Shown: positions 3-9,712 of the stretch, piece after piece
How the letters are laid out: every line of letters begins with the position of its first letter
Numbering within the stretch: the first letter of the stretch is position 1
DNA from: Reyranella sp.
Lineage (GTDB): Bacteria > Pseudomonadota > Alphaproteobacteria > Reyranellales > Reyranellaceae
Direction of reading: 5' to 3'
NCBI GenBank assembly: GCA_016780605.1
Contig: JADHLS010000118.1
Location: 1 to 10,045 of the forward strand
Length of the DNA: 10,045 nucleotides
Made by a program: the position numbers and the translations under genes
The notes under the pieces: model-generated
Databases searched by the model: none
The model's input: only the letters and a program-made list of their open reading frames with translations
Told to the model about the DNA's origin: nothing

Positions 3-803
3 CCCGCCATCACCGACCTCGACGGCGTCAAGGCGATCGGCCGCGAGGTGCGCGAGAAGGGCTTTACCGCGATGAAGACCAACATCTTCATCTACGACGC
101 CGACAAGAGGAATCCCAAAGGCTGGCGGCCGGGCTTCGGCTCACCCAGTTACCCCGAGCGCAATGTCGACCGGCACGTGCTGCGCAATCTGCGCATGCAT
201 CTGGAAGCGATCCGCGAGGGCGCGGGACCCGATGTCGATCTGCTGCTCGACCTCAACTTCAACGCCAGCACCGAAGGCTATCTGAAGATCCTGCGCGCCA
301 TCCGCGACCTCGACATGTTCTGGGTCGAGATCGACACCTACAATCCCGACGCGCTGGGCCTGATCCGCAGCCAGAGCCCGCACCCCATCTCTTCGTGCGA
401 GACGCTTCTGGGCATCCGCGAGTTCCTGCCCTACTTCAAGGCGCAGGCGATGGACGTGGCCATCATCGACACGCCGTGGAACGGCGTCTGGCAGTCGATG
501 AAGATCGCCAACCTCGCCGAAGCGCACGAGGTGAACGTCGCGCCGCATAATTTCTATGGCCATCTCTGCACCATGATGAACGCGCACTTCGCGGCGTGTG
601 TGCCCAACCTGCGCATCATGGAGACCGACATCGATCGCCTGGACTGGGACCACGAGCTCTTCACGCACGTGCCCGAGTTCAAGGACGGCCACCTCGTGAT
701 GCCATCGCGCCCCGGCTGGGGCACCGAGCCGGTGGAAGAGGCGCTGGCCAAGCACCCGCCCAAGCAGTTGGCCGGCGGCCTCGCCGGCAATCCGCGGAAG
801 TAA
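3..803 (+). CDS. Mandelate racemase/muconate lactonizing enzyme family protein (enolase superfamily), C-terminal part
   Basis: The reading frame is open from the window edge, so the N-terminal capping domain and true start lie upstream. The GTG at position 48 is internal. What remains is the (beta/alpha)7-beta barrel of a Mg-dependent enolase-superfamily enzyme, which abstracts a proton alpha to a carboxylate (sugar-acid dehydratase or racemase). Counting from the codon at 48, the visible sites are 'AMKTN' with K10, 'LLDLNFN' with metal ligand D68 and N70, 'FWVEID' with E94, 'SSCETL' with E118, 'IIDTPWNG' with D141, and 'APHNFYGH' with H167. The order K, D-x-N, E, E, D, H matches mandelate racemase. 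The second lysine of the KxK motif is Asn here (N12), so a single-base (D141/H167) dehydratase-like reaction is more likely than a two-base racemization; this is inference. The 'HLVMPSRPGWG' near the C terminus is typical of the family. Substrate unknown. The gene ends (TAA) next to a large palindrome, convergent with the metallopeptidase. Confidence 0.9.
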   Translation, partial: PAITDLDGVKAIGREVREKGFTAMKTNIFIYDADKRNPKGWRPGFGSPSYPERNVDRHVLRNLRMHLEAIREGAGPDVDLLLDLNFNASTEGYLKILRAIRDLDMFWVEIDTYNPDALGLIRSQSPHPISSCETLLGIREFLPYFKAQAMDVAIIDTPWNGVWQSMKIANLAEAHEVNVAPHNFYGHLCTMMNAHFAACVPNLRIMETDIDRLDWDHELFTHVPEFKDGHLVMPSRPGWGTEPVEEALAKHPPKQLAGGLAGNPRK

Positions 804-913
804 TCTTGCCGGACCGCGGGCCTCCAGGCCCGCTCTTCTCATGGTCTTCTGGACCGCGCGCATCCTGCGCGCCATGACCATGAGCGGGCCTGGAAGCCCG
901 CGGTCCGGCAAGA
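804..913. repeat. 110-bp composite palindrome between convergent genes
   Basis: A 32-bp left arm (804-835) is the reverse complement of the right arm (882-913) with one mismatch. Each arm is itself a hairpin: GCGGGCC-TCCA-GGCCCGC at 816-833, and its partner with loop TGGA at 884-901. A third hairpin (GCGCGCA-TCC-TGCGCGC, 856-872) sits in the middle, and CTCATGGTC (838-846) pairs with GACCATGAG (876-884). The element fills the whole gap between the TAA of the enolase-superfamily gene and the TAG of the minus-strand metallopeptidase. It could therefore act as a bidirectional terminator or mRNA 3'-end stabilizer. Its architecture matches the element at 3566-3709, which suggests a dispersed REP/BIME-like or MITE-like family rather than a one-off terminator. 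No transposase or RAYT gene is visible in the window. Confidence 0.9.
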
Positions 914-916
914 GAC

Positions 917-1858
917 CTAAAGCTGCTTCGCGCTGAACGTATCGCACTTGCGCGGATCGCCGCTTTCCAGGCCGATGTTGAACCAGCGCATGCGCTGGGC
1001 GCTGGTGCCGTGGGTGAAGCTGTCGGGCACGACGCGGCCCTGGGCCTGGCGTTGGAGACGGTCGTCGCCGATCGCCGAGGCGGCGGTGAGCGCCTGTTCG
1101 ACATCGCGGTCGCCGATCATCTTGCCGCCGCGCGCGGCGTCGGCGCGGTTGGCCCAGACGCCGGCGAAGCAATCGGCCTGCAACTCGACCCGCACCGACA
1201 GCGCATTGGCGTCGCGCTTGCTCATGCGCTCCTTCATCTGCTCCGTCTTGGCCGTGATGCCAAAAAGGTTCTGCACGTGATGGCCGACCTCGTGGGCGAT
1301 CACATAGGCCTGCGGGAACTGGCCCGGCGCGTGAAAGCGACGGGCGAGATCGTCGAAAAAGGCGAGGTCGAGATAGACCCGTTGGTCGACCGGACAATAA
1401 AACGGACCCATCGCCGACTGGCCGACGCCGCATTCGGTGCGCGTGGCGTCGCGATAGAGCACCAGCTTGGGATCGCGGTACTGCCGCCCGAGGCTGCGGA
1501 AGACGTCGCTCCAGACATCCTCGGTGCTTTTCAGCACCCGCGAGACGAACTGGGTCTCGGCGTCGCTGGCCGGCGCCTGGCGCGACGTCGTGCGGCTCGC
1601 CCGGGAAGCCTGCTCGGAGGGCCGCTCGTAAGTCGTGCCGCCGCCTCCCATCCCGCTCAGCAGGGCGAAGGGATCGGCGCCGAAGATCAGGGCGATGACG
1701 ATGAAGGCGATGAAGCCCAGGCCGCCCTTGAACAGGCCGCCGCCGATGGGAATGGGGATGCCGCCGCCCATGCCGTAACCGCCGCCGCCGCCACCGAAAT
1801 AGCCGCCCTCGCCGCGGCGATCCTCGATGTTGCTGCTTTCGTCACCGTCCATCTGCAT
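917..1858 (-). CDS. ypfJ: Neutral zinc metallopeptidase, YpfJ type (Zn_peptidase family)
   Basis: 313 residues, consistent with the family length. The N terminus (about 18-45) is glycine-rich and precedes a single hydrophobic segment at about 46-62, so the protein is probably anchored in the inner membrane with the catalytic domain outside the cytoplasm. The zinc-binding motif is HEVGHH (H189, E190, H193), and the conserved downstream 'ELQADCFAG' (E225 to about G233) supplies the likely third ligand and the family signature. Cysteines at 143 and 155 flank 'GPFYC' and could form a disulfide. The start is the ATG at 1858: AGGAG lies 8 nt upstream, whereas the in-frame ATG two codons later is too far from it. 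The gene is divergent from exonuclease III across 53 bp. The physiological substrate of this family is not established. The family call is secure from the motifs; the gene symbol is by resemblance only. Confidence 0.93.
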   Translation of the reverse strand: MQMDGDESSNIEDRRGEGGYFGGGGGGYGMGGGIPIPIGGGLFKGGLGFIAFIVIALIFGADPFALLSGMGGGGTTYERPSEQASRASRTTSRQAPASDAETQFVSRVLKSTEDVWSDVFRSLGRQYRDPKLVLYRDATRTECGVGQSAMGPFYCPVDQRVYLDLAFFDDLARRFHAPGQFPQAYVIAHEVGHHVQNLFGITAKTEQMKERMSKRDANALSVRVELQADCFAGVWANRADAARGGKMIGDRDVEQALTAASAIGDDRLQRQAQGRVVPDSFTHGTSAQRMRWFNIGLESGDPRKCDTFSAKQL

Positions 1859-1896
1859 AGAAGGGTCTCCTGGGTCGAGATCGGCCCGAGATTCAC

Positions 1897-1902
1897 TATA
1901 TT
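1897..1902 (+). promoter_or_regulatory. Possible -10 element for the exonuclease III gene
   Basis: TATATT lies 9 nt before the ATG at 1912, in the only 53-bp gap between two divergent genes. No good -35 is seen at the usual distance (the region is GGTCGAG). If this is the -10 box, transcription would begin at about 1909-1912 and the mRNA would be nearly or fully leaderless. The GGGGG run at 1903-1907 could instead be a weak ribosome-binding site on a longer transcript. Low confidence without start-site mapping. Confidence 0.3.
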
Positions 1903-1911
1903 GGGGGCGAG

Positions 1912-2733
1912 ATGAGCCTTTCCATCGCCACCTGGAACATCAATTCGGTCCGCCTCAGGATCAACAACGTCAAACGCTATCTTCGGCTGCGCAAGCCCGA
2001 CGTGCTCTGCCTGCAGGAAACCAAGTGCCCGGACGAGTTCTTCCCGCACAAGGCTTTCGAGGCGCTGGGCTACGGCCACCGGCTGGTCAAGGGCATGAAG
2101 TCCTATAACGGCGTGGCGATCCTCTCCAAGGTGCCGTTCACCGCCGCCGAGGTCCATCATCGCTGCGGCAAGGAGGATTGCCGGCACATCGAGGTCTCGC
2201 TCGATGTCGGCGCCGACCCCATCCTGCTGGACAATCTCTACATTCCGGCGGGCGGCGATGTCCCCGATCCCGCGGTCAACGACAAGTTTGCGCACAAGCT
2301 CGATTTTTACCGCGAGATGGCCCAGTGGTTCGCCGACCGCAGGCCGAAGGCCGGTGCCGCCAAGGGCCTGCGGCGGGTTGCCGTCGGCGACCTCAACGTG
2401 GCGCCGCTGGAGCATGACGTCTGGAGCCACAAGCAGCTTCTCAAGATCGTGTCGCACACGCCGGTCGAGGTCGAGCTGTTCGGGCGGCTGCAGGCCTCGC
2501 TCGACTGGATCGACGTGCCGCGTCGCTTCGTGCCCGACGACAAGAAGCTCTATTCGTGGTGGAGCTATCGCAACAACGACTGGCGCGCCTCCAATCGCGG
2601 CCGCAGGCTCGACCATATCCTCGCCTCACCGGGCCTGTCGGGTGCCATCAGCAGCCATCGCATCGACGTCGATCTGCGCGACTGGAAGCAAGCGTCGGAT
2701 CACGTCCCGGTCATGGCGACGTTCGAGGTGTGA
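1912..2733 (+). CDS. xthA: Exodeoxyribonuclease III (AP endonuclease, EEP fold)
   Basis: 273 residues against about 268 in E. coli ExoIII. It cleaves DNA 5' to abasic sites, removes blocked 3' ends in base-excision repair, and degrades one strand from the 3' end; it acts on chromosomal DNA in the cytoplasm. All catalytic motifs are present in order: TWNINSVR (N9), LQETK (E36), 'NLYIPAGG' (Y110), GDLNVAP (D160, N162), 'SWWSYR' (215-220), 'NRGRRLDHIL' (D234), and SDHVPV (D263, H264). These correspond to the known E. coli residues N7, E34, Y109, D151, N153, D229 and H259. The ATG at 1912 gives the expected N terminus directly before the first beta strand. It is followed after 12 nt by a small stress-type membrane protein gene, so the two are probably co-transcribed. 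Confidence 0.96.
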   Translation: MSLSIATWNINSVRLRINNVKRYLRLRKPDVLCLQETKCPDEFFPHKAFEALGYGHRLVKGMKSYNGVAILSKVPFTAAEVHHRCGKEDCRHIEVSLDVGADPILLDNLYIPAGGDVPDPAVNDKFAHKLDFYREMAQWFADRRPKAGAAKGLRRVAVGDLNVAPLEHDVWSHKQLLKIVSHTPVEVELFGRLQASLDWIDVPRRFVPDDKKLYSWWSYRNNDWRASNRGRRLDHILASPGLSGAISSHRIDVDLRDWKQASDHVPVMATFEV

Positions 2734-2745
2734 AGGGAGAAGCAC

Positions 2746-2997
2746 ATGACGTTCGGTAGCATCATCGGTGTTCTGGTCATCGGCCTGGTCATTGGCCTCC
2801 TGGCTCGGCTCGTCACCCCGGGCCCTAACCCGCGCGGCATCATCGTCACCATCGTGATCGGCATCGTCGGCGCGGTGATCGCGACCTTCGGCGGCCAGGC
2901 CCTCGGCCTCTATGCGCCGGGCGAGCCGGCCGGCTTCATCGGCTCGGTGATCGGCGCGGTCGTCCTGCTGGTGCTGATGCGGCTGTTCGGGCGGTGA
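2746..2997 (+). CDS. GlsB/YeaQ/YmgE family small membrane protein
   Basis: 83 residues, almost all hydrophobic, with three predicted membrane helices at about 4-22, 32-50 and 60-80. The 'LLARLVTPGPNP' at the end of helix 1 and the Gly-rich helices (GIVGAVIATF, FIGSVIGAVV) are typical of the transglycosylase-associated/GlsB family. This is a widespread set of inner-membrane proteins linked to stress responses, with no established biochemical activity. AGGGAGA sits about 6-12 nt before the ATG and forms a good ribosome-binding site. The 12-nt gap to exonuclease III suggests a shared transcript, ending at the hairpin downstream. Confidence 0.9.
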   Translation: MTFGSIIGVLVIGLVIGLLARLVTPGPNPRGIIVTIVIGIVGAVIATFGGQALGLYAPGEPAGFIGSVIGAVVLLVLMRLFGR

Positions 2998-3028
2998 GCT
3001 CATTCACCTCCCTTTTCTTCCTCATGCT

Positions 3029-3050
3029 CCTCTCCCCCAAGGGGGAGAGG
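3029..3050. terminator. Bidirectional terminator hairpin between convergent genes
   Basis: CCTCTCCCCC and GGGGGAGAGG form a perfect 10-bp stem around AA. Outer CTCAT (3021-3025) and ATGAG (3054-3058) can extend it. It sits in the 80-bp gap between the stop of the GlsB-type gene (+) and the stop of the methyltransferase (-). No clean T tract follows on either strand; the + strand has AATATGAG after the stem, and the minus strand has only a pyrimidine/purine mix. It may therefore stall or protect 3' ends rather than terminate in the textbook way. Hairpins of this CTCTCCCCC type are common between genes in alphaproteobacteria. Confidence 0.7.
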
Positions 3051-3077
3051 AATATGAGAGGGAGAAGCCAAACGAAG

Positions 3078-3566
3078 TCAGCCCACCCGATACAGAAAAT
3101 ACCGGTCCTTCGGCACGCCGGGCGGATCGGACTCGCGCTTCCACCGCGCCACCTCGAGCGGCTGGTTGGCGAGGATATAGCCGCCGGTCGCCGCCAGCGT
3201 ATCGAGCGCCGGACCGAGCCATTTCCCCATCGCCACGTTGGCCGCGTGATCGCCGGTGCCGAGGTCGGTATGGATCAACGCCGCGGCGGCGCCGAGCTTC
3301 TTCGCGGCCTCAGGGATCGCCGCCCGCGCCTCGCCCAGGAACAGGCGGTCGTCCGGCGGGATGCAGTCGGGATGGGCGGCCACCTTGCGCTCGAAGACGT
3401 AGATGTCGCGGCCGGGAAAGAGATCGCGCAGATGGTCGTAGGTACGGCCGTTGCCCAGGCCGACTTCCAGGATCGGACCGGACAACCGGTCGACGAGCGG
3501 CTTCAGATAGTTGAGGCAGTCGCGCTGCGCCTGCATGCGCGCGATGAAGCTATCGAGGCGACTCAT
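3078..3566 (-). CDS. Small class I SAM-dependent methyltransferase
   Basis: 162 residues with a Rossmann-type SAM site. Motif I is 'ILEVGLGNGRTYDHL' (about 32-46; E34, G36, G38, G40). The acidic end of strand 2 is E59 in 'IYVFERK'. 'LIHTDLGTGD' (about 97-106) occupies the motif III/IV position, and 'GGYILANQPLEV' (128-139) is the late strand region. The size and motif layout resemble the short methyltransferase family Methyltransf_17; that assignment is from memory, not a search. The methyl acceptor is unknown. The ATG at 3566 directly abuts the 144-bp palindrome and no Shine-Dalgarno sequence is visible before it. The alternative ATG at 3536 also lacks one. The gene may start leaderless, or its translation may depend on how the upstream hairpin folds. 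It lies downstream of the ABC/CNBD operon on the same strand but is separated from it by that palindrome. Confidence 0.85.
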   Translation of the reverse strand: MSRLDSFIARMQAQRDCLNYLKPLVDRLSGPILEVGLGNGRTYDHLRDLFPGRDIYVFERKVAAHPDCIPPDDRLFLGEARAAIPEAAKKLGAAAALIHTDLGTGDHAANVAMGKWLGPALDTLAATGGYILANQPLEVARWKRESDPPGVPKDRYFLYRVG

Positions 3567-4212: not shown

Positions 4213-6933
4213 CTATGCCGCCGCCATCAGCTCGGCATAGAGCCCGCCTTTTGCCGCCAGCTCCGACGGCGCTCCATGGGCGACGACACGGCCGCCCTGC
4301 ATGACCACGATCTGTTCGAACGGCTCGGCCTGCGAAGGCCGGTTGGCGATCCACACCACGCCGCGGCCGTCCTTCCTGGCCGCCGTCAGGATATTGTCAC
4401 GGATACGGTCCTGCGTCCGGCCGTCGAACGAGGCGACGGCCTCGTTGACGATCAAGAACTGTGGCCGTTTGATGAGTGCACGGGCAATGCCGAGTTTCTG
4501 GCGTTGGCTTGCCGTCAGGCGCTTGCCGCCGACACCGACATTGTAGTCGAGCCCGACCTCGACCACCGAGTTTCGTAGGCCAAGCCCGTTGAGCACATCG
4601 GAGATAAGCGTGCCGATGCGCTGCTCGCCCTGGGCCTGGCCGTAGACCAGGCGGCCGAACAGGATGTTGTCCTGCAGGGTGGCGGCGCTGTTGTAGCGCT
4701 CGAAGTCGTAGAACTCGACGGCCCCGCGCAGCGGCGCGGGCAGGCCCTGGGCAAAGGCATGGCGTGCCGTGAGGAGCCGCTCCTCCATCGCCGCGTCGAC
4801 CAGGCCCAGGCGATGGCGCGCCTCGATGTAGCGGAAGGGCAGCGTCATCAGGCGCGGGCGGTCGGCCTCGGGCACGGCATCGATGCCCTTGCCGCCGAGG
4901 CGTTGCAGCAACAGCCGCACGTTGGGCAATTCGTCGGCCGAGATGAAGCTGTACTGCTCGAACAGCGGGTTGTCGGGCGACAGGCCGGAGAACAGCTCGA
5001 CCATGGTCTCGGCGATGGTGAGACCCATGCGCTGCAGGTCGAGCTCGATGCCGGTCGCCTTCAGCACCGACTGCATGTAGGGATCGAAGGCGATGCTGTC
5101 GCCGGACAGCTCCTTGCCGAGCGGCGTGCCGAACAGGATGTTCTCGGCGACCGACAGGTTGCGGTTGTAGGCGTCGGCGTTGAAGGTCTCGATCAGGCCG
5201 GCGTAGCTGGGATCCTTCAGGCGGCCGTGCAGCTCGTGCCGCGCCTTGAGGAACCGCTCCGCGAGGTCGGGGCGCAGCGCGGCATCGATGCTGCCGCGCA
5301 GGCCGAGGCCGTAGATGTCCTCGTCGAGCTCGACCTGCTTCAGCACTTCGACGATGCGCGGCAGGAGGTCGGCCGGGCCGCTGGCGCCGGCCAGCTCGTA
5401 GTCGATCCAGTCGGCGTGGGGGTCGAACGGCGGATTGCCGGCGCGCACCGATTCCTCCCAGAAGGCCTCGCGCTCGGCCTTCAGCGCCTCGTCGTAGTTG
5501 GCGGGTGCGATCGGCCGGATCTTCAGGCCGAACAGCAGATTGTCCCGCACCGATTGTGGGAAGAGGTAGGTCTCCTGCCCGACATAGGCGGTGCGCGCGC
5601 CAAGCACGTACTCGGGCAGCTGGAAGAAATCGTTGCCGTCGAGCTTGATCGAGCCGCTGCTCGGCAGGGTGAGACGCGCCAGGACCTGCCCCAGCACTTC
5701 CTTGCCCGAGCTCGAGCCGCCGATCACCGCCATCTTTGTATCGGTCGGCAGGACCATCGACACGCCGTCGAGCTGCTTCACGCGGCCGTCCTCGGAGACG
5801 GTGACGCCTGCCAGCGCGAGTTCCTTGCCGAGCGGCGGCGGCGGACCCTCGGGCAGGGCCTGCAGCTCCTGGGGCATCATGCCCTCGGGCTGGAACTGGT
5901 CGATCACCTGCTCGTACTTGATCTGCACGTCCTGGCGTTGCTGGTCCCAGTCGATCAGCTCCTTGATGGGGCCCGGCAGGTCCTTGTAGGCCAGCAGCAC
6001 GCCGACCACGGCGCCGACGTTCATGTGGCCGGTGATGGCGAAGTAGCCGCCGACCAGGTAGATAGCGAAGGGCGTCGCCTGCGACAGGATGTTGTTCCAG
6101 AACTTCGCGACGAACTTCTTCTGATAGAGATCGAAGCGGATCTTGTAGATCTTGCCCAGGCGGTCGGCGATGTCGGCGCGCTCGTAGTTGGCGGCACCGT
6201 GGATATGGATCTCGTGCACGCCGTCCGCGGTCTCGGCGATGCGGCCGGCGAGCTGGCGCGCCGTGATCTGGCGCTCGCGTCCCAGGATCAGCACCGGCCG
6301 GCGCAGGCGCGGGATGATCACCATTTGCACGCCCAGCAGGGCGACGACGATGATCCCGAGCAGCCAGTTCTGCAGCATGATGAAGATGATGGCCGTGAGC
6401 GCCTGGCCGCCCAGGAACATCGGCTGGACGAAGGCATCGCCGATGAAGCCGCCGAGAGGCTCGACCTCGTCCTTGATCATGGTTGCGAGCTCGGCCTGCT
6501 TGACCTTGCGAAAGTGGGCCGGCGGGAAGCGCAGGATGCGATCATAGAGCTCGTAGCGCAGGCGGCGCAGCATGCGCTCGCCCATGCGGCCCTTCTGGGT
6601 ATTGATGGTCTTCTTGAACTGGCTGTTGATGATCACCGCGCCCAGGAAGACGAAGCTCATGGTCACCAGGTAACCCAGCTGGTCGACCTGGAAGCCGTCG
6701 AAGATGCGCAGCACCTTGCCCGGCAGGATGGCCGAGAGGTCGAGCTCCCAGACCAGGAAGGGGATGGTCTGGTGGTTCTTGAAAGCGTTTCCCTGGATGC
6801 CGTTGTTGACGATGTCCTTCGGCACGGTCAGCGACAGGAAGTAGAAAACCTGCGCCAACACCACGAGGCCGAGGATGAGGACCTGCTCGGGCCTGCTGTA
6901 CCGCCAGATGTAGGTGAACAGATTGCGTTGCAT
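4213..6933 (-). CDS. Atypical ABC exporter half-transporter with degenerate, expanded nucleotide-binding domain
   Basis: About 906 residues; the ATG at 6933 is preferred over the TTG one codon upstream (6936). Residues below are numbered from the TTG. Residues 1-345 are a type I exporter membrane domain, with hydrophobic segments at about 18-37, 88-104, 172-188, 190-208, 286-302 and 305-317. The NBD runs from about 372 to 907. The Walker A position reads 'GGSSSGKEVL' (406-415): K412 is kept, but the second Gly is Ser and the usual Ser/Thr is E413. The Q-loop is 'YVGQETYLF' (Q454). The signature is LTASQ (807-811) instead of LSGGQ. Walker B is 'FLIVNEA', with N831 for Asp and catalytic E832 kept. 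The D-loop is SFDG. The H-loop His is N865 ('WIANRPS'). Between Q-loop and signature there are about 350 residues instead of about 50. They include three copies of a helical-subdomain-like unit beginning at 'QSVRDNLLFG' (461), 'LSVAENILFG' (594) and 'ATLQDNILFG' (752). A typical half-transporter is about 580-620 residues. Substrate unknown; ATP turnover may be weak or absent. Confidence 0.9.
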   Translation of the reverse strand: MQRNLFTYIWRYSRPEQVLILGLVVLAQVFYFLSLTVPKDIVNNGIQGNAFKNHQTIPFLVWELDLSAILPGKVLRIFDGFQVDQLGYLVTMSFVFLGAVIINSQFKKTINTQKGRMGERMLRRLRYELYDRILRFPPAHFRKVKQAELATMIKDEVEPLGGFIGDAFVQPMFLGGQALTAIIFIMLQNWLLGIIVVALLGVQMVIIPRLRRPVLILGRERQITARQLAGRIAETADGVHEIHIHGAANYERADIADRLGKIYKIRFDLYQKKFVAKFWNNILSQATPFAIYLVGGYFAITGHMNVGAVVGVLLAYKDLPGPIKELIDWDQQRQDVQIKYEQVIDQFQPEGMMPQELQALPEGPPPPLGKELALAGVTVSEDGRVKQLDGVSMVLPTDTKMAVIGGSSSGKEVLGQVLARLTLPSSGSIKLDGNDFFQLPEYVLGARTAYVGQETYLFPQSVRDNLLFGLKIRPIAPANYDEALKAEREAFWEESVRAGNPPFDPHADWIDYELAGASGPADLLPRIVEVLKQVELDEDIYGLGLRGSIDAALRPDLAERFLKARHELHGRLKDPSYAGLIETFNADAYNRNLSVAENILFGTPLGKELSGDSIAFDPYMQSVLKATGIELDLQRMGLTIAETMVELFSGLSPDNPLFEQYSFISADELPNVRLLLQRLGGKGIDAVPEADRPRLMTLPFRYIEARHRLGLVDAAMEERLLTARHAFAQGLPAPLRGAVEFYDFERYNSAATLQDNILFGRLVYGQAQGEQRIGTLISDVLNGLGLRNSVVEVGLDYNVGVGGKRLTASQRQKLGIARALIKRPQFLIVNEAVASFDGRTQDRIRDNILTAARKDGRGVVWIANRPSQAEPFEQIVVMQGGRVVAHGAPSELAAKGGLYAELMAAA

Positions 6934-6936
6934 CAA

Positions 6937-7118
6937 AATCCGCGCCGGGGGCGGCCAGGGCCTGGCCCCCCTCTACTCCTATATTCGATCAGTGCCTTGA
7001 TTACATTCGATTTTTTGCATCCCGGAAGGGCTTCGCTCGGGTCGGGTCGTTATGGCATAGTCCGCCCGAATAAACCGGTCGGGGCAAGCTCGCGCTTCGG
7101 CAAGGGGAGAGGGGTCGC
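6937..7118. promoter_or_regulatory. Divergent intergenic region between ABC/CNBD operon and glycosyltransferase cluster
   Basis: This 182-bp gap must carry promoters for both directions. Its centre (about 6974-7020) is AT-rich compared with everything around it. It contains TATATT (6980-6985) and two direct ATTCGAT copies (6983-6989 and 7005-7011) 22 bp apart, about two helical turns. A weak rightward -10 candidate is CATAGT (7056-7061), without a good -35. I cannot assign a promoter firmly. GGGAGAGGGG ends about 5 nt before the ATG at 7119 and serves as that gene's ribosome-binding site; the ABC gene has only a weak GGA before its start. Confidence 0.5.
6947..6971 (-). promoter_or_regulatory. 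GC-rich hairpin in the ABC transporter leader
   Basis: GGCCAG (6953-6958) pairs with CTGGCC (6962-6967) across a 3-nt loop. GGGG (6948-6951) pairs with CCCC (6968-6971) after one bulged C. The base of the stem is about 14 nt upstream of the ABC start codon (6933) on the minus-strand transcript, where it could limit ribosome access. No T tract or anti-terminator partner is seen. Confidence 0.45.
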
Positions 7119-8402
7119 ATGCCTCAAAGCCGGTCCAAGCGTGTGCTGCTGTACAGCCACGACTCCTTTGGCCTCGGCCATGTCAGCCGCTGCCGCACTA
7201 TCGCCAATGCCCTGGTTGCGGCTGACCCCAATGTCTCGGTGCTTATCGTATCGGGTTCGCCGGTCATCGGCTCCTACGAGTTCCGTTCCGGTATCGACTT
7301 TGTGCGCATTCCGGGCGTGGTCAAGCTGATCGAGACCGGAGAGTACGATTCAGCCAACCTGCGGGTCGGCGTCGAGCATACGCTGGCGATGCGTACCCGG
7401 ATCATCCGCGACACCGCTGATATCTATCGCCCCGACCTCTTCATCGTCGACAAGGAGCCGACCGGATTGCGAGGCGAGGTCGTGCCGGCGCTCAAGCTGC
7501 TCCAGGAGCGCGGTACGCCGTTGGTGCTCGGCCTGCGCGATGTCATGGACGATCCGGCGGCTCTCGCAGCCGAATGGGAGCGTAAACACGTCGTGCCGAC
7601 GTTGCGCGACCTCTACGATGAGATCTGGATCTACGGGTTGCCGCAGATCAACAAGCCGCTCACCGGCATCGAGGTTCCGCCGTCGGTTCGCCACAAGATG
7701 GTCTATACCGGCTATCTGCGCCGCGACCTGCCGCTGCACACCGACGTCCCGCACGAGATGGAGGAGATCGACGGGCCCTTCATCCTGGTGACGGCGGGCG
7801 GCGGCGGCGACGGCGCCGATCTGATCGACTGGGTGCTCGCGGCCTACGAAAGCGACCCGCACATCCCCTACGGCGCGGTGATCGTTTTCGGGCCGTTCAT
7901 GTCTGCGGCCGAGCGCGAGGCCCTCAAGGAGCGCGCCGGGAAGTTCCCCAACATCCGCACGCTCACCTTCACCAACAATCTCGGCGCGTTGATGCAGCGG
8001 GCGGCGGGCGTGGTGGCCATGGGCGGCTACAACACTTTCTGCGAAATCCTGTCGTTCGACAAGAAAGCCATCATCGTGCCGCGCACCAAGCCCCGGCTCG
8101 AGCAGTTCATCCGCGCCCGGGCCGCGCGCAATGTCGGCCTGATCGAGATGCTCGATGCCGAACGCGGTCGCGACCCGCATGCCATGGCCACCGCTTTGCG
8201 CCAGCTTCCGCAGCAGGGCTTGCCGAGCGACGTCGTGGTGCCGGGCCTGCTCGATGGCCTGCCCAACGTCTGGCGCCTGGTTGCCAAGCAGCTCGCCCAT
8301 CCCCATCGCGGTCCCGCGCCGCTGTACGCAACCTGGGGCGAGGACAAGCCCACCGACTCCACGGCATCTCCCGCCGCGCCAACGGCGCGCGCCAGGACCT
8401 GA
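7119..8402 (+). CDS. Predicted glycosyltransferase, COG4671/GT28-like (MurG-type GT-B fold)
   Basis: 427 residues. The N-terminal 'YSHDSFGLGHVSRCRTIANAL' region has the G-L-G-H loop (G18-H21) used by MurG-type GT-B enzymes to hold the acceptor or donor phosphate. A glycine-rich loop, 'VTAGGGGDG' (224-232), opens the C-terminal Rossmann domain. 'AMGGYNTFCEILSFDKKAI' (300-318) is the donor-binding alpha/beta/alpha motif characteristic of family 28. The order and spacing match the predicted glycosyltransferases of COG4671. The last 35 or so residues are low-complexity (Ala/Pro/Thr/Arg) and probably disordered. It uses a nucleotide sugar in the cytoplasm; donor and acceptor are unknown. It is the first gene of a three-glycosyltransferase run and is divergent from the ABC/CNBD operon. 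The next gene begins 14 nt after its stop. Confidence 0.88.
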   Translation: MPQSRSKRVLLYSHDSFGLGHVSRCRTIANALVAADPNVSVLIVSGSPVIGSYEFRSGIDFVRIPGVVKLIETGEYDSANLRVGVEHTLAMRTRIIRDTADIYRPDLFIVDKEPTGLRGEVVPALKLLQERGTPLVLGLRDVMDDPAALAAEWERKHVVPTLRDLYDEIWIYGLPQINKPLTGIEVPPSVRHKMVYTGYLRRDLPLHTDVPHEMEEIDGPFILVTAGGGGDGADLIDWVLAAYESDPHIPYGAVIVFGPFMSAAEREALKERAGKFPNIRTLTFTNNLGALMQRAAGVVAMGGYNTFCEILSFDKKAIIVPRTKPRLEQFIRARAARNVGLIEMLDAERGRDPHAMATALRQLPQQGLPSDVVVPGLLDGLPNVWRLVAKQLAHPHRGPAPLYATWGEDKPTDSTASPAAPTARART

Positions 8403-8416
8403 ACGCCGGGATTTTC

Positions 8417-9712
8417 ATGTCTTCGCCAATGGACGCGCGTGTCGCGGTCGTACTCAAGGGCTGGCCGCGCCTGTCCGAGACCTTCATTGCCCAGGAGCTT
8501 GCAGGTCTCGAGGCGCGTGGCGTCGCGCTGGAGATCTGGTCGCTGCGCCGGCCGACCGACAAGCATCGCCATCCGGTGCACGATCGCGTGGCCGGCCGCG
8601 TCGTCTACCTGCCGGAGTACCTCAAGGACGATCCGGCCCGCGTATGGCGGGGTTGGCTGAAGGCGCGTCGCCTGCCCGGCTATCCGGCGGCGCGCGCGAG
8701 GTTTCTCGCCGACCTGCGGCGCGATCCAACGCCCAATCGGCTCCGGCGTTGGGGCCAGGCGCTCGTGATGGCCGCCGAGTTGCCGTCCGGCATCGAGCGT
8801 CTCTACGCTCATTTCCTGCACACGCCCTCGTCGGTCACACGCTACGCCGCCATCCTGCGCGGCCTGCCATGGAGCCTGTCGGCGCACGCCAAGGACATCT
8901 GGACCAGCGAGCCCTGGGAAGCCGCCGACAAGCTCGCCGACTGCACCTGGGCCGTGACCTGCACCGACATGGGGGCCACGCGGCTGCGCGACCTCGCCTC
9001 ACGCTCCGATAAAACCGGGGCTGACAAGGTGAAGCTCGTCTATCACGGCCTCGACTTCGCCCACCTCCCGGCACCGACACAGATTCGCTCGCAGCGTGAC
9101 GGATCGGATGCCAACGATCCCGTCGTCGTCCTGTCGATCGGCCGCAAGGTCGAGAAGAAGGGCTACGACGATCTCCTGCAGGCGCTGGCCGCCCTGCCGA
9201 GGACGGTGAGCTGGCGCTTCGAGCACATCGGCGCCGGCGAGCTTGGTGATGCGCTGAAAACCCAGGCCTCGCGACTCGGCATTGCCGAACGCTGCACGTG
9301 GCTCGGTGCCCAGCCGCAGAAGCAGGTGTTCGCCGCCTTGGCGCGCGCCGACCTTTTTGTGCTGGCGAGCAAGAAAGCGGCCGACGGCGACCAGGACGGC
9401 CTGCCTAACGTGCTGATGGAGGCTGCCCACCAGGGCCTCGCCATTGTCTCGACGCGCGCCGCCGCGATTGGCGAGTTCATCGACGATGGCGACAACGGAT
9501 TGCTGGTCGCGCCCGGCGCGCCCGACGCTCTGTCGGCGGCGCTGGCGCGCCTGATTACCCATCCCGAGCTGCGCCAGAAACTGGCGCATCGCGCCGGCGA
9601 GGTCGTGCGCACGCGCTTCTCCTTCGACGCCGGCGTGGACTGGATCGCCTCGGCCCTCGGCCACCCTGTCCAGCCCGAGGCCATCTTGTCGGAGGCAAGG
9701 GCTGCGGAGTGA
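8417..9712 (+). CDS. Glycosyltransferase family 4, WcaL-like
   Basis: 431 residues, GT-B fold, retaining type. The N-terminal domain has 'LKGWPRLSETFIAQELAGLE' (13-32), typical of colanic-acid WcaL-like enzymes. The acceptor side shows 'AHFLHTPSSVTRYAA' (131-145) and 'SAHAKDIW' (155-162). The donor side has 'SIGRKVEKKGYDDLL' (240-254; R243, K248 for phosphate binding). The EX7E-type element is 'DGLPNVLME' (D327 to E335), with Asp in the first position as in much of this subfamily. It is followed by 'GEFIDDGDNGLLVAPG' (about 355-370). It probably adds a sugar to a lipid-linked or surface glycan in the cytoplasm or at the inner membrane. The ATG at 8417 has only a weak GGG-type site upstream; a second ATG at 8429 has none. 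Tight spacing on both sides indicates an operon. Confidence 0.92.
   Translation: MSSPMDARVAVVLKGWPRLSETFIAQELAGLEARGVALEIWSLRRPTDKHRHPVHDRVAGRVVYLPEYLKDDPARVWRGWLKARRLPGYPAARARFLADLRRDPTPNRLRRWGQALVMAAELPSGIERLYAHFLHTPSSVTRYAAILRGLPWSLSAHAKDIWTSEPWEAADKLADCTWAVTCTDMGATRLRDLASRSDKTGADKVKLVYHGLDFAHLPAPTQIRSQRDGSDANDPVVVLSIGRKVEKKGYDDLLQALAALPRTVSWRFEHIGAGELGDALKTQASRLGIAERCTWLGAQPQKQVFAALARADLFVLASKKAADGDQDGLPNVLMEAAHQGLAIVSTRAAAIGEFIDDGDNGLLVAPGAPDALSAALARLITHPELRQKLAHRAGEVVRTRFSFDAGVDWIASALGHPVQPEAILSEARAAE

Follow-up and report, generated by a model that had tools for sequence, protein, structure and literature searches.

What defines ATP-binding cassette (ABC) transporters is that ATP is hydrolyzed at two shared sites; those exporters in which one site is degenerate retain one consensus site. 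Among soluble ABC ATPases, the Rad50/SMC coiled coil, UvrA and the ABC-F arm carry domains inserted between the Q-loop and the signature, at a site similar to the one described below; to our knowledge, none of these inserts duplicates the helical subdomain, and a transmembrane domain (TMD) is absent from those proteins. The window analyzed here, a 10,045-bp stretch of the alphaproteobacterium Reyranella sp. (contig 20 of a 4.3-Mb, 61%-complete genome), encodes an exporter-like protein whose nucleotide-binding domain (NBD) is split by a large insert at this place (Table 1). The protein belongs to a widespread family under selection, which keeps the exporter TMD together with an elaborated NBD, has no member with a complete set of hydrolysis motifs among 433 homologs, and is paired with a predicted cyclic-nucleotide sensor. 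The joint occurrence of ATPase degeneration, an enlarged helical subdomain and a cyclic-nucleotide module is more surprising than the repeat within the NBD alone.

Descent and conservation of the family

Counted from its ATG, the product of the transporter gene is 906 aa long (a TTG at 6936, one codon upstream, is an alternative start), a length supported by close homologs annotated at 904-906 aa; named relatives, several Reyranella among them, show 82-89% identity. ABC_membrane (PF00664) matches residues 26-313 (60.1 bits against a cut-off of 28), and ABC_tran (PF00005) matches in two separate stretches (55.4 bits against a cut-off of 25). At E 0.01, these domains were found in 51 and 52 of the 54 members of family alignment A1, respectively; among the 120 Sulfitobacter/Moritella-type proteins listed, most have no ABC_tran in their precomputed Pfam lists. 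With both the TMD and the NBD models matched above their cut-offs, the protein is assigned to the ABC exporter superfamily by descent.

The ratio of nonsynonymous to synonymous substitution rates (dN/dS), compared among 11 Reyranella-like genes (55 pairs), had medians of 0.15 in the TMD, 0.25 in the N-terminal NBD part, 0.23 in the insert and 0.13 in the C-terminal NBD part, which indicates purifying selection on the gene among Reyranella-like sequences; the idea of a decaying gene was rejected on these values. The TMD is the best conserved of the long regions: its mean pairwise identity is 0.40 (336 columns), whereas the NBD parts and the insert reach 0.30-0.33.

The wider comparison used 433 homologs, comprising the best 120 of each of three search results at E 0.001 (6143, 863 and 182 proteins, the first of which will include ordinary ABC proteins) and fetched loci; with this sampling, clades are unevenly represented and some rows repeat others. 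Fragments were omitted, namely P0299 and P0304 (less than 800 aa) from this set and sequences of less than 840 aa from the comparison that gave the counts for the 170 Reyranella-group sequences. The copies described below are not peculiar to one genome, since matches to a window segment occur in 31 of 398 genomes, including that of the window, and in 30 of 398 by profile. All matches in the 398-genome searches fall in the class of the window, and named Gammaproteobacteria occur in other homolog searches. A 40-row family tree, midpoint-rooted and with long branches, requires three changes of the P-loop GK label. The homologs are read as an old, widespread family of ABC-exporter-derived proteins that is under selection.

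A repeated segment of the helical subdomain

A preliminary description of this stretch proposed that the segment after the Q-loop, a head motif and the following helix, occurs three times in the NBD. All of the strings that it quoted are present, with heads at residues 461, 594 and 752 and helices at residues 528-546, 621-639 and 778-796. The full layout runs, in order, from the Q-loop through head 1, a 57-residue stretch, helix 1, element 1, head 2, helix 2, a unique core, element 2, head 3 and helix 3 to the signature. The repeats span window positions 5556 down to 4549; the region of 4213-5570 first assigned to them also takes in the ordinary C-terminal part of the NBD. The size of the insert agrees with the proposed gain of about 290 residues. 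The Q-loop runs directly into copy 1, and copy 3 directly into the signature; therefore, copy 2 and its flanking elements represent the surplus.

A strict head pattern occurs three times in the window protein, a count reached in 0 of 2000 shuffles, and in 21 NBD slices from ordinary exporters it is found once in 10 and not at all in 11, never more than once. Across the 433 family members, it occurs three times in 224, twice in 63, once in 128 and not at all in 18; among those that fail it are the Sulfitobacter/Moritella types, which have different letters around the head Asn. This Asn, the equivalent of which is present in 21 of 21 ordinary slices, is kept in 421 (copy 1), 433 (copy 2) and 433 (copy 3) of the 433 homologs, and the duplication thus withstood the comparison with homologs. 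The 21 slices were drawn from 26 loci and picked for GK[ST] and a signature (two pairs print alike), and they are therefore informative on the head segment and not on motif frequency.

Within the window sequence, Smith-Waterman comparison aligned the element and copy 2 with the element and copy 3 over 82 residues (z 11.4; 0 of 1000 shuffles as good) and copy 2 with copy 3 alone (z 6.2; 0 of 1000), and copy 1 was weak against copies 2 and 3 (z 3.8 and 3.0; 4 and 15 of 1000 shuffles as good). Copy 1 of L033, a distant relative, has no detectable similarity to copies 2 and 3 (591 and 977 of 1000), and in L024 unit 1 is compact and can be aligned with unit 3 (3 of 1000). Comparison of family profiles (at most 34 sequences) with hhalign matched the three head-and-helix pairs over approximately 50 columns at E 3e-9, 1e-12 and 1e-8, values that apply to single pairs with segment ends picked after viewing the alignment and for which column permutations serve as the control (0 of 100 reached the score). 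Heads 1, 2 and 3 also matched the post-Q-loop segment of the 21 ordinary slices at E 1.4e-8, 5.2e-6 and 1.4e-6 (0 of 40 permutations as good). On these comparisons, the homology in sequence of the three copies of this helical-subdomain segment is supported, as the preliminary description had suggested. Mean-field direct coupling analysis of the 433 sequences gave noisy couplings (an effective number of 124 sequences for 373 columns) and was not used.

The stretches that precede copies 2 and 3, in which an F/Y-N/D-x-x-x-Y-N motif had been noticed, prove to be family-specific elements (“ARxxF...FDxxxYN”) that match each other at E 9e-14. The Q-loop strand before copy 1 resembles them weakly as long as the head is kept (E 6e-4 and 9e-5); once it is removed, the family Q-loop strand has no match to the elements (34 and 24 of 40 permutations as good), and neither has the Q-loop strand of ordinary exporters (11 and 17 of 40). 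The elements match each other and, with the head removed, no Q-loop strand, and the Q-loop was therefore rejected as part of the repeated unit; the internal duplication first proposed is supported for the head and helix, a part of the helical subdomain, and not for the Q-loop. No match to the segment of ordinary exporters was obtained for the unique core (residues 648-715; 6 of 40 permutations scored as well), and a profile of the whole insert found no relative in the PDB (best E 0.32).

Loss of the ATPase motifs

The preliminary description further suggested that the additional copies create extra coupling surfaces. That idea presupposes a working ATPase, yet, as the description had not noted, the family has largely lost its signature, Walker and H-loop motifs. 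Of 433 sequences, LSGG[QE] is present in 0, GK[ST] in 47, the Q-loop Q in 176, the Walker B DE in 36, the H-loop His in 17, and all of these together in 0. The losses differ among groups: the 170 Reyranella-group sequences have a nearly fixed set of altered motifs (GK[DE] in 170, NE in 170 and Q in 162, with N or S in the H-loop), Rhizobium-type rows have lost the P-loop Lys, the P-loop of Sulfitobacter/Moritella types is not recognizable, and Thalassospira types keep GK[ST] and DE and have lost the signature and the His (32 of 32). Judged by its signature, Walker and H-loop motifs, the family does not qualify as a working ABC ATPase. Since the signature, the H-loop and most Walker residues are lost, an ordinary ABC cycle, as known from ABC exporters and outlined in a review (PMC7756269), is not to be expected.

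A predicted cyclic-nucleotide-binding partner

A CAP-like gene, likewise missed in the preliminary description, starts 19 bp downstream of the transporter gene, with a purine-rich ribosome site in the gap. Its product contains a stretch resembling a phosphate-binding cassette, LGEIAILCDVPRTAT, with both the Glu and the Arg that we take to be the signature of this cassette in cyclic-nucleotide-binding proteins, and the predicted ligand signature is intact. To examine the family, 39 neighborhoods were searched with reference genes of Rhizobium leguminosarum 248, Azospirillum lipoferum 4B, the window, L107 and L110. A cyclic-nucleotide-binding (cNMP) domain is adjacent to or fused with the transporter in 36 of them. 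Thirty of these 36 domains were aligned, without L034, L038, L048, L066, L077 and L162; of the 30, 24 retain GE, 29 the Arg and 17 R-x-A-T. PF00027 lies in the same chain in nearly all full-length Sulfitobacter/Moritella/Granulosicoccus-type proteins listed, and also in Thalassospira types. P0288 and P0289 have a C-terminal GGDEF domain after the cNMP domain, and in P0307 an N-terminal nSTAND1 NTPase (318 bits) is fused to the degenerate exporter.

In R. leguminosarum 248 (PF00211) and, by annotation, in Sinorhizobium meliloti ml46, the locus begins with a class III cyclase gene; the 61%-complete genome of the window has 25 matches to the class III cyclase family. With the sensor cassette kept and a cyclase in the locus, a cyclic nucleotide is the likeliest control. 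The 185-bp divergent intergenic region between the transporter gene and the RedA-like gene (6934-7118) contained no CRP-like palindrome in a scan for TGT-N8..10-ACA.

In two Thalassospira-type genomes, an MBL-fold gene lies directly upstream (L110:7047-7880 and L127:7035-7847). The L110 protein scores 101.7 bits against a cut-off of 50 for Pfam Apyc1, the anti-Pycsar family that cleaves cyclic nucleotides, and the L127 protein is 83% identical to it. An NCBIfam phosphodiesterase model gave 42-43 bits against a cut-off of 400 on the MBL-fold neighbors of L107 and L095; the MBL-fold neighbors may be cyclic-nucleotide phosphodiesterases.

A recurrent glycosyltransferase locus and other neighbors

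Upstream of the transporter gene and divergent from it, the window carries genes for two glycosyltransferases similar to RedA and RedB, names taken from the record of Rhizobium etli CIAT 652. RedA-like and RedB-like proteins occur together in 21 of the 39 neighborhoods, and other glycosyltransferases of the set in three more (L095, L111 and L116), giving 24 of 39. The accompanying glycosyltransferase locus was found in Rhizobium, Sinorhizobium, Azospirillum and Reyranella-like genomes. Other neighbors matched in the 39 neighborhoods are deacetylase-like proteins (16), histidine phosphatases (13), Opp-type peptide-binding proteins (10), MBL-fold proteins (8) and cyclases (6, several of them weak matches). 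The neighborhoods extend at most approximately 14 kb per side, and often less, so that all of these counts are lower bounds.

A locus of glycosyltransferases, a histidine phosphatase, a deacetylase-like protein and an Opp-type importer is conserved beside the family in L163, L164, L165, L160, L107, L117 and L095. In S. meliloti ml46, the matches to RedA and to the third glycosyltransferase each fall in two pieces outside the gene table (L165:9420-10620 and 11886-13002), and each is one unbroken match in the Rm41 record (L162). A Sulfitobacter paralog (L120:4776-7810), in a genome with three family members, has genes for a PrtD-type secretion ATPase and an HlyD adaptor immediately upstream. The five genes within positions 48-3566 of the window have no evident connection to the transporter.

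Table 1. Features of the window, with positions in the 10,045-bp stretch.
Feature	Position	Strand	Basis
Mandelate-racemase-like C-terminal domain, near contig edge	48-803		
Neutral zinc metallopeptidase	917-1858		
Endonuclease/exonuclease/phosphatase-family protein	1912-2733		
Transglycosylase-associated protein	2746-2997		
Methyltransf_17 protein	3078-3566		
Predicted cyclic-nucleotide-binding protein, 151 aa	3738..4193	(-)	PF00027, 68.8 bits vs cut-off 27.5
ABC-exporter-like, predicted pseudo-ATPase gene (TMD and split NBD)	4213..6933	(-)	Pfam; homolog lengths; dN/dS
Degenerate H-loop WIANRP, His to Asn	4336..4353	(-)	His in 17/433
Degenerate Walker B FLIVNEA, Asp to Asn, Glu kept	4438..4458	(-)	N 170/170, E 170/170 in Reyranella group
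Degenerate signature RLTASQ	4504..4521	(-)	LSGGQ in 0/433
Helix 3 ISDVLNGLGLRNSVVEVGL, residues 778-796, runs into signature	4549..4605	(-)	Profile comparison
Head 3 ATLQDNILFG, residues 752-761	4654..4683	(-)	Profiles; Asn 433/433
Family element (tail) 2, MEERLLTAR...YDFERYN	4690..4788	(-)	Profile comparison
Unique core, copy 2 to element 2	4798..5019	(-)	Residues 648-715 unlike ordinary exporter segment
Helix 2 MQSVLKATGIELDLQRMGL, residues 621-639	5020..5076	(-)	Profile comparison
Head 2 LSVAENILFG, residues 594-603	5128..5157	(-)	Profiles; Asn 433/433
Family element (tail) 1, LAERFLKAR...FNADAYN	5164..5265	(-)	Match to element 2, E 9e-14
Helix 1 IVEVLKQVELDEDIYGLGL, residues 528-546	5299..5355	(-)	Profile comparison
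Head 1 QSVRDNLLFG, residues 461-470	5527..5556	(-)	Profile comparison
Q-loop VGQETY, single occurrence	5566..5583	(-)	Profile comparison
Walker A GGSSSGKE, Ser/Thr to Glu	5698..5721	(-)	K 170/170, D/E 170/170 in Reyranella group
RedA-like GT28-type glycosyltransferase, divergent neighbor	7119..8402	(+)	PF04101; 46% to R. leguminosarum RedA
RedB-like GT4 glycosyltransferase	8417..9712	(+)	PF00534; 52% to R. leguminosarum RedB

Proposed function and alternatives

The reading preferred here, and only tentatively, is that of an exporter-derived pseudo-ATPase under cyclic-nucleotide control that serves a surface-glycan locus. Its basis lies at the level of sequence: the repeats and their conservation, the loss of the ATPase motifs, the purifying selection seen in the Reyranella group, a cNMP domain that is either adjacent or fused, and the recurrent glycosyltransferase locus. 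The head-and-helix piece of the helical subdomain would have been tandemly duplicated to three copies between the Q-loop and the signature, and the addition of two copies of a new element and of the unique core would have enlarged the cytoplasmic lobe by about 290 residues. Binding of a cyclic nucleotide to the CAP-like domain may then cause the homodimer to open or close its membrane domain, or to dock the glycosyltransferases, and the repeated heads, like those of ordinary exporters, may receive coupling helices or a partner. ATP would be absent in the Rhizobium and Sulfitobacter types, and would be a bound, little-hydrolyzed ligand in the Reyranella and Thalassospira types. The neighbors suggest that the cargo could be a glycan or glycolipid from the adjacent enzymes, and the direction of action might likewise follow from them. 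Thus, the transporter may respond to a signal molecule as its switch and not depend on ATP as its driving force.

Several observations weigh against this proposal. Reyranella forms keep the Walker A Lys (170 of 170), the Walker B Glu (170 of 170) and the Q (162 of 170), and Thalassospira-type sequences keep GK[ST] and DE in 32 of 32; therefore, nucleotide binding, and perhaps slow hydrolysis, are possible. In the Rhodobacterales-type forms (L119-L124 and L161), the cNMP signature is eroded, and among the 39 neighborhoods, three loci of family f2 (L115, L125 and L128) have no CAP match. Fifteen of the 39 contain no glycosyltransferase of the locus, so that the link to glycans is not universal. 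The neighborhoods are also not independent, as seven are Reyranella-like, several come from one genome and some supplied reference genes.

The retained residues also bear on an explanation that we consider unlikely, in which the protein is still an ATP-driven exporter with unorthodox motifs: MgATP would bind with a changed metal site, the Walker B Glu would hydrolyze it slowly, and the cyclic nucleotide would regulate. The altered Reyranella motifs are fixed and not drifting, GK[ST] and DE persist in every Thalassospira type aligned, and dN/dS is low in the C-terminal NBD part (median 0.13). However, LSGGQ and the complete motif set are each found in 0 of 433 sequences, and the P-loop Lys is lost in the Rhizobium and Sulfitobacter forms.

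The conservation of the insert alongside the loss of the ATPase motifs, together with glycosyltransferase neighbors in 24 of 39 loci, would fit a membrane scaffold or sensor that does not transport, with the TMD as an anchor, the lobe recruiting glycosyltransferases and the cyclic nucleotide setting assembly. This explanation is judged unlikely; the TMD is the best conserved of the long regions (0.40 against 0.30-0.33), which fits a working passage equally well. Slightly more doubtful is a bolder scheme of an ATP-independent ABC fold, in which a cyclic nucleotide on the CAP domain, fused or partner, would replace ATP as the trigger that closes the NBDs and the tripled subdomain would form a pseudo-repeat lobe relaying this signal to the TMD; the protein would then be a cAMP-gated conduit for glycan intermediates, a bacterial counterpart to CFTR with a swapped ligand.

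It is very unlikely that the protein is the inactive half of a heterodimer, paired with an ordinary ABC half-transporter from another locus. Heterodimeric exporters of which one site is degenerate are familiar, as part of the review cited above records (PMC7756269), and other exporters are present in the genomes; on the other hand, the Walker and signature sides are both damaged, so that both composite sites would be affected, and among the neighbors identified the only ordinary exporter half is the type I secretion ATPase found close to one of the Sulfitobacter copies. Convergence of a short helix cap, in place of duplication, would account for the weakness of copy 1 in single sequences (the window protein and L033), but is scarcely credible given profiles that align over approximately 50 columns with no permutation as good and the 82-residue match at z 11.4.

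If confirmed, a pseudo-ATPase under cyclic-nucleotide control would provide a natural test of the role of the NBD helical subdomain without ordinary ATP turnover, and would direct attention to a glycan locus of Rhizobium, Sinorhizobium and Azospirillum that is linked to cyclic nucleotides.

Comparison with known systems

In the openly licensed literature of PubMed Central, no description of this transporter family or of a fully degenerate bacterial exporter was recognized, and nothing was found on the rhizobial redA/redB locus; a match to “redB” in part of PMC7950203 is the cultivar name Redberry and not the gene. The fusions to cyclic-nucleotide-binding domains treated in the relevant part of PMC10710835 concern MFS transporters.

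Homodimeric exporters of the MsbA type (TIGR02203) give the best NCBIfam match (182.4 bits), and their TMD and N-terminal NBD part align with those of the window protein. By contrast, the window protein scores far below the equivalog cut-off of 602, its NBD is split by approximately 290 residues containing the repeats, and its ATPase motifs are lost. S. meliloti MsbA2 (SMb21191) is likewise an ABC exporter, encoded on pSymB, and passages of PMC3687685 and PMC12239276 tie it to glycosyltransferases and an unknown polysaccharide. However, MsbA2 belongs to the operon SMb21188-21191 (PMC3687685, in part), whereas the S. meliloti ml46 gene of the present family lies beside a cyclase gene, Opp genes and a Crp-like gene; the family member is at a different locus, and its identity with MsbA2 was rejected. 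The exporters with one degenerate site (TM287/288, TmrAB, ABCC1 and CFTR), as far as they are covered in the part of PMC7756269 concerned, resemble the family in having lost catalytic residues while keeping the exporter fold; unlike them, the family lacks signature, H-loop and Walker residues in one chain.

Of the exporters found with a cyclic-nucleotide-binding domain, the cyanobacterial HetC comes closest, on the description in part of PMC10986499. In HetC, this domain lies at the N terminus and was seen to bind ppGpp in vitro, a peptidase domain is present and an ATPase residue is essential, all of which set it apart from the window protein; the same passages describe no repeat in the NBD (PMC10986499). 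No peptidase domain is among the three Pfam matches of the window transporter, and an NHLM ABC1 equivalog model scores 158 bits on it, below the cut-off of 853. What HetC and the present family have in common is the union of an ABC exporter with a cyclic-nucleotide-binding domain, which in HetC is required in vivo according to the same source (PMC10986499).

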